Shown here: positions 1 through 32,188 of the stretch, in pieces
Numbering within the stretch: position 1 is the stretch's first letter
Layout: every line of letters begins with the position of its first letter
Origin: Candidatus Bipolaricaulota bacterium
GTDB taxonomy: Bacteria > Bipolaricaulota > Bipolaricaulia > M55B111
DNA length: 32,517 nt
Reading direction: 5' to 3'
Assembly (NCBI GenBank): GCA_018334915.1
Contig: JAGXLB010000011.1
Span: 1-32,517 of the forward strand
Position numbers and translations under genes: made by a program
The notes under the pieces: generated by a model
What the model saw: only the letters and a program-made list of their open reading frames with translations
Database searches by the model: none
What the model was told of the DNA's origin: nothing

Positions 1-310
1 AAGAAAGTCCTGCCTATCGGGATATCTAGAGGTGATTTCTTTGTGTGGACCTTCCGGCTGGGCACGGGGACCCAGCCTACTATGTTAAAAAAGGGACCCA
101 GCCTACTATGTTAAAAAAAGGCACCCGGCCTGCTACTGCGACCAAAGTAGCCCCCGGTGCCTCTGCCGGGGGCGGTATGTTCGGTAAACAAAGTCCCGGC
201 CGGGCAGGGGCACCCGGCCTGCTGTTGTGTAATACCTTCCGGGCGGGCACGGGGACCCAGCCTACTTCAACAACCTGAGTAGACCTCAGTCCCCCTACTG
301 GGGGCGGTAG
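1..310. repeat. Array of GC-rich palindromic elements (hairpin family A) in both orientations, with a 26-bp perfect tandem duplication
   Basis: GGCTGGG-cacgggga-CCCAGCC (56-77); tandem gggacccagcctactatgttaaaaaa at 67-92 and 93-118; CCCCCGG-tgcctctg-CCGGGGG (~150-172); GGCCGGG-caggggca-CCCGGCC-TGCT (~198-223); GGGCGGGCACGGGGACCCAGCCTACT (~241-265); CCCCC-tact-GGGGG (~291-304). Confidence 0.75.
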
Positions 311-1962: not shown

Positions 1963-2006
1963 GGGAGGCGTGGAAGCCCTCCCTGCTTGAGGCTCCCATG
2001 CCCCAC
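1963..2006. repeat. Hairpin family A elements, facing pair
   Basis: GGGAGG-cgtggaagc-CCTCCC-TGCT followed by reverse-oriented TGAGGCTCCCATGCCCCA (reverse complement TGGGGCATGGGAGCCTCA). Confidence 0.65.
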
Positions 2007-2675: not shown

Positions 2676-2701
2676 GGGAGGGCGTGGGAGCCCTCCCTGC
2701 T
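2676..2701 (+). repeat. Hairpin family A element (archetype)
   Basis: GGGAGGGC-GTGGGA-GCCCTCCC-TGCT: perfect 8-bp stem, 6-nt loop. Confidence 0.75.
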
Positions 2702-7912: not shown

Positions 7913-8231
7913 CCTAAGTTATACGATTTTCCTTCTTTAGACCAGCTTCTAAATCCGAATACAAGATAAAATTTCCACTATTTCGAATTTTTAATTGGTT
8001 CATCCAGTGGACCATGTTCAAAAGTTAAATCAATTCACTCTCTCGGAACTTTCAACCAGCACCCAGATCAGAAAAGTTACCTGGAAGTAGATTATTTGAC
8101 TGAACAAGTATGGTAGACCATATCGCAGTTAAGTCAAAATCTTGAGCCCGGGCCCGCATCCCATCTGAGTGCTGGACCAATTCCCGCTTGTAAAATATCC
8201 TTTATGGAAAACCATGCTAATTCAAACTGAA

Positions 8232-8373
8232 GTAGTAAAGAAATCGCTTGAATCGCGCTATCCCCACCCACAGGGTGGGGCATTACGCCCGATTCATGGC
8301 TTAGCCACCGCGATTTCTAAACAACTACAAACTGACGCATTCATCCTCGTCCACAGGACGGGGTATTCTGCGT
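8232..8373. other. Structured orphan element: nested three-tier stem-loop plus second hairpin; possible IS200/IS605-family right-end / omega-RNA-like relic
   Basis: AGAAATCGC(8239-8247)...TGAATCG(8249-8255)...CCCCACCC(8262-8269)-aca-GGGTGGGG(8273-8280)...CGATTCA(8290-8296)...GCGATTTCT(8310-8318); then ACGCA(8335-8339)..CGTCC-aca-GGACG(8348-8360)..TGCGT(8369-8373). No transposase ORF in the window. Confidence 0.55.
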
Positions 8374-8513
8374 GAATTTGATAAAATCACTCAAATTAGG
8401 TCCAGATATAAAAATCCGAAAAATAATATTAGATTAGAAAATACAAATCAATCCGAGAATTCAGAAGGTAAGAGAGTACCTGTCACCTCTACGGAAAGGC
8501 GAAAATAACCAGT

Positions 8514-10172: not shown

Positions 10173-10310
10173 ACTCCTTTCTAATTTCCAGAATTATCAA
10201 AAAACCACATAAGTCCAACTAAGCTTAACTGTTGGGCCAGGAACTATCAAAAATTAAAGTTCGATAAAGCAGGGGACGCTGCCGGGGGTAAAGGTTATTT
10301 ATGAATTTTC

Positions 10311-10376
10311 CGCCAGGCACGGAACCCCGGGCTGCTATTTCCGGTCCCGTAGCAGGGAGGGCTCCCACGCCCTTCC
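10311..10376. repeat. Hairpin family A, tail-to-tail (BIME-like) pair
   Basis: CGCCAGGCACGGAACCCCGGGCTGCT followed by reverse-oriented AGCAGGGAGGGC-TCCCAC-GCCCTTCC (10351-10376). Confidence 0.65.
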
Positions 10377-10488
10377 GATGCGTCGCAGGAGTGGAAGATA
10401 GAGGAGTAGTTCGAAACGTCGGGGTATGTGAGATCCGGCTGGTTTGCTAGTTGTCGGTAATCAGGTTTTCTAGAAGGTAGAATCAACC

Positions 10489-10612
10489 GGCCGGGCACGG
10501 GGACCCGGCCTGCTTCCGCGACGGACAGAGAAGTTGCCGGCGGATAGTCGCCCGAGCGTGGGAGCTCGGCCTGCTTTTTCTGCTCCCGTAGAACGTTGGG
10601 GGTGCTCACCAA
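10489..10612. repeat. 124-bp composite repeat, copy R1 (two family A hairpins plus conserved spacer)
   Basis: Same length as 12801-12924 with 2 mismatches by eye; its last 64 bp (10549-10612) are identical to 10741-10804. Confidence 0.9.
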
Positions 10613-10630: not shown

Positions 10631-10703
10631 CTAAACCAAAAAAGCTTTACAATTCCATCAACCACAACACCGGATCTAGAAAGATCCGGCTATCGGGTTA
10701 TTG
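10631..10703. repeat. 73-bp repeat with family B hairpin, copy 1
   Basis: ctaaaccaaaaaagctttacaattccatcaaccacaacaCCGGATC-tagaaa-GATCCGG-ctatcgggttattg; near-identical to 13138-13211. Confidence 0.85.
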
Positions 10704-10740
10704 GTATATTGGAACGGATTGCCGAGAGTGTTAAACCATT

Positions 10741-10835
10741 CGCCCGAGCGTGGGAGCTCGGCCTGCTTTTTCTGCTCCCGTAGAACGTTGGGGGTGCTCA
10801 CCAAATCCGCGCGGGCAATGGGAGCCCCGGCTGCT
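10741..10835. repeat. Composite repeat copy R2 plus following family A hairpin
   Basis: 64 bp (10741-10804) identical to R1 3' part; then gcgGGGC-aatggga-GCCCcggCTGCT. Confidence 0.85.
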
Positions 10836-10939
10836 ATCTCTTATTTAATTGTGCACGCATTCTTACTATATCAGCCGCAGTCCAGCACTCATTGCCGGAC
10901 CGGTAGGTTGTCTCTAGCCAGCTTCTACCAACCAAATAG

Positions 10940-10963
10940 CAGGTCTGGAAAGATTTGCCTATC
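10940..10963 (+). repeat. Family B hairpin (degenerate, G-T wobbles)
   Basis: CAGGTC-tggaaa-GATTTG-cctatcg. Confidence 0.5.
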
Positions 10964-11046
10964 GAACTATCGAATACAGGGATATGCTAAATGTTGAGAG
11001 GACCGTTGTACTAAGAAACCACAGGAGTTAACCTCTTAGGGAAATA

Positions 11047-12679: not shown

Positions 12680-12800
12680 CTGTTTCTCACCCCGATTCCC
12701 AGCTATGATAGCGGAAAGGAGATAAATTTAAAAGACGAGGAAAAATGACCCCAATAGAACTTTTTGTTAGTAAACCTGGAAGTGGTTATAAGAACCTAGC

Positions 12801-12953
12801 GGCCGGGCACGGGGACCCGGCCTGCTTCCGCGACGGACAGAGAAGTTGCCGGCGGATAGTCGCCCGAGCGTGGGAGCTCGGGCTGCTTTTTCTGCTCCCG
12901 TAGAACGTTGGGGGGGCTCACCAAACGCGCGGACAATGGGAGCCCACGCTGCT
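12801..12953. repeat. 124-bp composite repeat, copy R3 (12801-12924), plus following family A hairpin
   Basis: Near-identical to 10489-10612; followed by gcgcGGacaatgggagCCcacgCTGCT, homologous to the R2 downstream element. Confidence 0.9.
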
Positions 12954-13097
12954 ATTTTATAATTTAATTGCATCCTATAGCCAGGTCTTTCGAGCCCTGA
13001 TGTACATATAGGGTGAATCGTTGATTAATTACCTTCGGTAGTAACCACGTGGAATTTATCAAAGGAGATAATTCTACACTTCAACCAACCATCTCAT

Positions 13098-13122
13098 CAG
13101 GCTTAGAAAAGCCTGTCTATCG
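13098..13122 (+). repeat. Family B hairpin
   Basis: CAGGCT-tagaaa-AGCCTG-tctatcg, perfect 6-bp stem. Confidence 0.6.
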
Positions 13123-13137
13123 AACAATTGGCCTCAT

Positions 13138-13211
13138 CTAAACCAAAAAAGGCTTTACAATTCCATCAACCACAACACCGGATCATAAAAGATCCGGCTA
13201 TTGGGTTATTG
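13138..13211. repeat. 74-bp repeat with family B hairpin, copy 2
   Basis: CCGGATC-ataaaa-GATCCGG-ctattgggttattg; near-identical to 10631-10703. Confidence 0.85.
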
Positions 13212-13226
13212 AATAGAAAAGGTCCC

Positions 13227-20642: not shown

Positions 20643-20853
20643 TGCAACTCAGTTCTTTCACTACTATTCGGAAGTAAGGTGAAGGTCACAAAGAATCACC
20701 ATATTTTTTGGTTCAAGCCTCCTGCCTCTTACCTGGCTTCCGGGATTTTGTCTACTGGTAGAATTTTAAGGTTAAATCAGTTGCCAGGTAAGAGGCAGGA
20801 GGCATAGGAGGACAAAACAATGATATACAAAGATGGTGAAAGAACTGAGTGCA
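20643..20853. repeat. Nested inverted-repeat element (15-bp outer arms, 21-bp inner arms)
   Basis: Outer ACTCAGTTCTTTCAC (20647-20661) / GTGAAAGAACTGAGT (20836-20850); inner GCCTCCTGCCTCTTACCTGGC (20717-20737) / GCCAGGTAAGAGGCAGGAGGC (20783-20803). Confidence 0.9.
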
Positions 20854-32123: not shown

Positions 32124-32188
32124 GCCCGAGCGTGCGAGCTCGGGCTGCTTCGATGCCGGACGAATAGCAGAGGGCTCCCAAACCCTCC
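32124..32188. repeat. Hairpin family A, tail-to-tail (BIME-like) pair
   Basis: GCCCGAGC-gtgcga-GCTCGGGC-TGCT then reverse-oriented AGCAGAGGG-ctcccaaa-CCCTCC. Confidence 0.7.

Follow-up and report, generated by a model that had tools for sequence, protein, structure and literature searches.

Intergenic hairpins with covarying stems in a Candidatus Bipolaricaulota genus: a probable REP family with a cognate RAYT transposase

The short hairpins that we term family A, found in the genome of a salt-lake candidate-phylum bacterium, are very probably (probability about 0.9) a family of REP elements, often arranged as inverted pairs of the BIME or REPIN kind and mobilised, now or once, by a cognate REP-associated tyrosine transposase (RAYT). 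REP elements are small parasitic DNA palindromes and are present in many bacteria. The initial annotation of this DNA had named RAYT-mobilised REP/BIME elements as the closest analogue, and this was borne out by more than 100 copies, strong covariation, a BIME-like alternation of orientation and the presence of a RAYT inside the clusters of two sister genomes. The window, that is the whole stretch of 32,517 nucleotides that was analysed, is contig C35 of genome G000 (2.9 Mb in 316 contigs, about 84% complete), whose genus-mates are Candidatus Bipolaricaulota MAGs, two of them named Tobar15.5-16.5m-G30 and GSL_GSL3510_1.

In the window the element is a 22-nt hairpin composed of an 8-bp stem and a 6-nt loop, GTGGGA or ACGGGG, followed by TGCT or TACT. 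Its register can be written C-[stem, first base G]-RYGGGR-[stem', last base C]-TGCT, with 8 stem positions on either side of the 6-nt loop, and on the strand of the RAYT it reads 5'-A-GCAG-[stem]-TCCCAC-[stem']-CG(A/G)TTGGT-3'. The tail had been described as CTGCT; this tail is present, but its first C still belongs to the 3' arm, as the final base. Similarly, copies with the loop described as ACGGGGA do exist, but their stem has the same 8 positions, the pair that closes the loop being a C.A mismatch. Among 260 copies the tail is TGCT in 217 and TACT in 19, which correspond to GCAG and GTAG when read on the strand of the RAYT; the final G of the tag doubles as the first base of the stem. The hairpin of family A therefore has the GTAG-type tetranucleotide at its 5' foot in a variant form, mostly GCAG.

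With E<=0.05 as threshold, a covariance model (R1) built from 12 copies found 15 copies in the window, the best with E 1.2e-12, and every one of them lies between long ORFs; the initial annotation had counted at least a dozen intergenic elements. The copies beginning at 56, 2676, 10489, 12801, 12862 and 32124 lie where the initial annotation had placed them. The copies are as follows:

56..77, + strand: hairpin GGCTGGGC-ACGGGG-ACCCAGCC, tail TACT (R1 43.9 bits)
150..173, - strand: family A-like hairpin, 9-bp stem, loop AGAGGC, tail TACT (hairpin scan; no R1 match)
198..219, + strand: hairpin with variant loop AGGGGC, tail TGCT (R1 41.7 bits)
241..262, + strand: hairpin with 2 stem mismatches, tail TACT (R1 40.3 bits)
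1963..1983, + strand: hairpin with a 1-nt deletion in the 5' arm (R1 32.4 bits; sequence)
2676..2697, + strand: hairpin GGGAGGGC-GTGGGA-GCCCTCCC followed by TGCT, the copy under which the family was first annotated (R1 48.2 bits)
10303..10342, + strand: degenerate copy (R1 20.7 bits)
10355..10376, - strand: hairpin, tail-to-tail with the copy at 10303..10342 (R1 44.2 bits)
10489..10510, + strand: hairpin GGCCGGGC-ACGGGG-ACCCGGCC (R1 48.4 bits)
10550..10571, + strand: hairpin with stem GCCCGAGC (R1 44.5 bits)
10742..10763, + strand: hairpin with stem GCCCGAGC (R1 50.2 bits, the best in the window)
10801..10841, + strand: copy of loop class AATGGGA (R1 22.1 bits)
12801..12822, + strand: hairpin GGCCGGGC (R1 47.3 bits)
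12862..12883, + strand: hairpin GCCCGAGC-GTGGGA-GCTCGGGC (R1 45.1 bits; DNA fold z -4.4)
12919..12959, + strand: copy of loop class AATGGGA (R1 21.9 bits)
32124..32145, + strand: hairpin GCCCGAGC-GTGCGA-GCTCGGGC (R1 45.3 bits)

REP and BIME elements are palindromes of 20-40 bp that lie between genes and number about 100 or more in a genome, and family A agrees with this in size, copy number and placement. The covariance-model search proposed in the initial annotation gave at least 117 copies in G000 (R1, E<=1, with 150 of 859 candidates scored; best E 3.3e-11), and the true number is probably higher, since many copies are located at contig ends. Family A was also found in 5/5 sampled genomes of the genus, and none was among the matches listed when 95 other Candidatus Bipolaricaulota genomes were searched with R1 at E<=1e-5.

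The two arms of the stem change together, as had been noticed from the window. Counting cells rather than independent events, the 260 copies gave 341 both-sided stem cells, compared with about 96 in shuffles. In the 116 copies of G000, 88.1% of stem cells are paired against 69.7% after shuffling, and both-sided cells number 150, whereas shuffling gives 45 and sliding the frame never more than 34; in 144 copies from the congeners 92.0% are paired, with 191 both-sided cells against 51. Moreover, 20 distinct perfect 7-bp stems share a single loop and tail consensus, and 28 pairs of stems differ by exactly one base pair. Given the R1 matches and covariation exceeding that of shuffles and slid frames, the family is not a product of chance.

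The covariation is strong, but the earlier conclusion that compensatory change implies selection for the fold does not follow from it alone, because self-templated correction of quasi-palindromes also yields such change. The family could accordingly be explained by passive amplification, in which slippage or recombination multiplies palindromes and correction matches their arms with neither selection nor a transposase. Local duplication does occur in the window (10479-10612 vs 12791-12924) and correction can imitate compensatory change, yet the C.A mismatch that closes the loop has been retained in a large fraction of the copies, in step with the type of loop, the loop and the tag are conserved although they have no need to pair, and a RAYT has copies around it in three genomes belonging to two phyla. 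This explanation is considered very unlikely.

The arrangement of the copies resembles that of BIMEs. Neighbours within 120 nt are inverted in 93 cases and direct in 38, and 40/48 head-to-head pairs are spaced by 22-25 nt, so that the alternating orientation at a preferred spacing which characterises BIMEs is found also in family A. Stems are perfect in 70% of the copies lying less than 30 nt from another copy, compared with 47% of lone copies, a difference that fits doublets being the unit of mobility (PMC3116915). Palindromic spacers within the inverted pairs were not supported, the self-complementarity being 0.46 against 0.51 with shuffled partners. Although ORFs of at least 110 aa cover 75% of the sequence, 232/260 copies are outside them; the remaining 28/260 fall within short ORFs that overlap with the arrays of repeats, or within a stretch upstream of the RAYT of the congener G001 that is only doubtfully part of its reading frame.

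Convergent gene gaps hold 56/173 placed copies while they account for 19% of gap bases. This enrichment leaves room for a secondary role that family A may have at transcript ends, and together with a few T-rich tails (TGCTTTTT) it is what could be expected if the hairpins acted at the RNA level, as terminators of transcription, as stabilisers of mRNA or as RNA hairpins bound by proteins, with the covariation reflecting selection on RNA. If a transcript were under selection, wobble pairs of one strand should be in excess; the stem mismatches are instead evenly divided (42 GT+TG vs 43 AC+CA), which reveals no strand-specific tolerance of wobble. The copies moreover occur in both orientations and in alternating arrays, most have no U-tract, and the linkage to a RAYT would be left unexplained. 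An Rfam search of the window returned no match. Action as RNA is likewise considered very unlikely.

Comparison with the congeners provided information about individual sites. The segment 2642-2739, which contains the copy at 2676..2697 in the gap between rplM and purA, has no counterpart in the syntenic gap of genome G003, and the same gap of G001 has a different hairpin in its place. The cluster at 12740-13237 matches 168 bp in G001 that are without R1 matches. Such differences may reflect insertion or deletion, and the empty rplM-purA site of G003 could be the result of a deletion.

Other repeats are present in the same region. A second covarying hairpin family, termed family B, is found in the clusters of family A and has the form AACCATCACA-[8-bp covarying stem]-NGAA-[stem']-CTATCG. 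Its copies in the window are:

1-30: family B, partial
10660-10706: family B
10930-10975: family B
12964-13010, - strand: family B
13087-13133: family B
13168-13214: family B

At E<=1e-4 family B has 19 matches in G000, 7 in G001, 29 in G003, 4 in G004 and one in a sister genus, and none in 94 other genomes of the phylum. Its inverted pairs are offset by exactly 123 nt in four genomes and have a palindromic middle (TTCGGTAnATTCCACGTGGAATTTACCGAA); these two features give it the look of a REPIN or MITE with a fixed length of about 170 bp. Elsewhere, at 20647-20850, there is an element of about 200 bp with perfect terminal inverted repeats of 15 bp (ACTCAGTTCTTTCAC) and an inner inverted repeat of 21 bp, which is probably another MITE; several stretches similar to it were seen in 20 kb of G001. 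In addition, two GC-rich hairpins (CCCCACCCACAGGGTGGGG and CGTCCACAGGACGGGG) at 8255-8385, in the gap 7913-8513, are possibly IS605-type ends.

A profile search of the genomes with PF01797 identified one protein other than IS200-type TnpA in each of G003 and G001. The transposase genes of interest are:

G003:C76:11972-12469, - strand: RAYT gene, separated from the nearest family A copies by 36 nt at one end and 124 nt at the other
G001:C118:174-671, - strand: RAYT gene, with family A copies on both sides
L001 893-1285 (G000:C241:920-1285): IS200-type TnpA, its frame interrupted by a TAG; no other full-length Y1 transposase match was found in G000

In G003 and G001 there is thus a single RAYT flanked by REPs, the arrangement that characterises a REPtron; the sequence records holding the two genes are JAIPHJ010000023 and JAGXKX010000129. 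Both proteins exceed the cut-off of the NCBIfam equivalog model NF047646 (106 and 113 bits, cut-off 80) and remain under that of the IS200 model (NF033573, 33 bits, cut-off 55), which places them outside IS200/IS605. By sequence as well as by predicted fold (mean pLDDT 70) the best PDB match is 4ER8, in which the E. coli RAYT (TnpA_REP) is bound to a REP hairpin. The motifs DHYH, WQ and YILFNP are present and, as we read the alignment with 4ER8, W94, Q95 and R104, which contact the tag, are conserved while E100 is replaced by D, a residue found at this position in RAYT subclasses 2.5 and 2.7 (PMC6006769).

These results bear also on the idea that the hairpins are ends of IS200/IS605 elements, or MITEs moved by an IS200-type TnpA instead of a RAYT. 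G000 does encode such an enzyme, and enzymes of this type likewise read hairpins with a guide tetranucleotide, but its gene is interrupted by the in-frame TAG, no family A was found on its contig (C241), and the transposases that do lie inside family A clusters score as RAYTs and not as IS200. This reading, too, is considered very unlikely.

The initial annotation had recommended a search for a Y1 transposase (PF01797), and the outcome was divided: a RAYT is present in the clusters of G003 and G001, but none was found in the window's own assembly, which is about 84% complete and broken at repeats. A weak match in G000 (C13, 35 aa, E 0.012) was rejected as chance. The RAYT was likewise not found in G002 or G004, both about 70% complete. 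A REPtron in the same genome is usual but not required, as deletion can remove REPtrons, and REP families in species without one are on record (Di Nocera et al. 2013, PMC3733652). Perfect stems make up 46% of copies in G000, 76% in G003 and 58% in G001; the more decayed stems of G000 fit a loss of the RAYT, but the assembly is incomplete and G001 keeps its RAYT at 58%.

The only other close RAYT found is encoded in a Chloroflexi MAG (48% identity), and a search of 400 Chloroflexota genomes at E<=1e-25 gave no close one beyond that starting genome. Plasmid matches were distant (best 34% identity), and a pattern-based scan of viral_contigs found none. A longer Y1/RAYT-like group (PF01797, frames of about 290 aa) is common in other Bipolaricaulota families (G015:C112, G033:C194, G087:C100 and many more).

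The Chloroflexi RAYT has GTAG-A-GGCGGC-TCCCAC-GCCGCC-ATTGGT on one flank and CGGGC-GTGGGA-GCCCG on the other, and a separate contig of the same genome carries the hairpin GGCTGGGC-GTGGGA-GCCCAGCC-CGCT. In this comparison, which involves a low copy number and few flanking hairpins, the loop agrees with family A and so does, in one copy, the ATTGGT flank, whereas the stems beside the RAYT differ. The shared loop, combined with the stem pattern within the genome, suggests from sequence comparison that loop and foot are read by the RAYT while the stem sequence is free. In group 3 RAYTs loop bases are indeed critical, the stem largely tolerates change if it is still paired, and the tag is the guide sequence (PMC8266576). 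As the Stenotrophomonas maltophilia enzyme barely cleaves GCAG substrates (PMC8266576), the GCAG tag of family A is off-canon.

We infer that family A is the substrate of the RAYT, with loop and tag as the features recognised, and that its copies multiply when a single strand is cleaved and transferred. Like TnpA_REP, the RAYT would be a HUH/Y1 endonuclease that cuts single-stranded DNA, on which the hairpin would form, and it would recognise the GCAG foot and the loop. The stem would have to pair with most of its sequence free, and would therefore drift by paired changes. A wider proposal is more tentative, and we regard it as somewhat less than an even chance: that a RAYT lineage spanning Bipolaricaulota and Chloroflexota reads the loop (TCCCAC/CCCCGT) and a GCAG-type foot with the stem essentially free, so that one transposase serves at least 20 stem subfamilies and paired drift diversifies the elements.

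Among known systems, family A resembles the group 3 REPtrons of S. maltophilia and Marinomonas sp. MWYL1 (PMC8266576) in its short, perfectly paired hairpin with the tag at or near the 5' foot, in the RAYT flanked by REPs, in the length of this protein and in its WQ and YI..NP motifs; specific loop bases are needed for cleavage in those systems. It differs from them in its GCAG rather than GTAG tag, its 6-nt loop (TCCCAC/CCCCGT), the HYH form of its HUH motif and its phylum. With the E. coli REP/BIME elements and TnpA_REP (4ER8, group 2) it shares the HUH-Y fold, the tag at the foot, alternating BIMEs and intergenic location, but its stem is without bulge and its loop is conserved, while the E. 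coli enzyme reads the bulge and lower stem and not the loop; the two proteins are about 20% identical in the fold alignment. Inverted doublets, preferred spacing and better preservation of doublets than of singlets are traits of the REPINs of Pseudomonas fluorescens SBW25 also (PMC3116915), from which family A differs in a short spacer not self-complementary beyond the family consensus.

The GTAG repeat families 1-24 (PMC3733652), compared by stem, tag and dimer, are like family A in having stems of 6-13 bp, subfamilies with alternative complementary residues in the stem, GYAG degeneracy of the tag and head-head and tail-tail dimers; the text of that work names no Bipolaricaulota host. REP families are thus already known to include GYAG tags, dimers and subfamilies with complementary stems. 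As far as the literature shows, the novelty of family A lies in the phylum of its host, in the consensus of the loop and in a tag that is predominantly GCAG. The loop and tag consensus, which had not been recognised at the outset, was found in no published description, and no paper on Candidatus Bipolaricaulota mentioning RAYT or repetitive extragenic elements was found.

Family A contributes a REP/RAYT system from a candidate phylum. With more than 250 copies, free stems and a fixed loop and tag, it is a natural experiment that predicts the bases which the RAYT reads, and its native GCAG tag offers a test of the guide-sequence model, because the known group 3 enzyme barely cuts this sequence.
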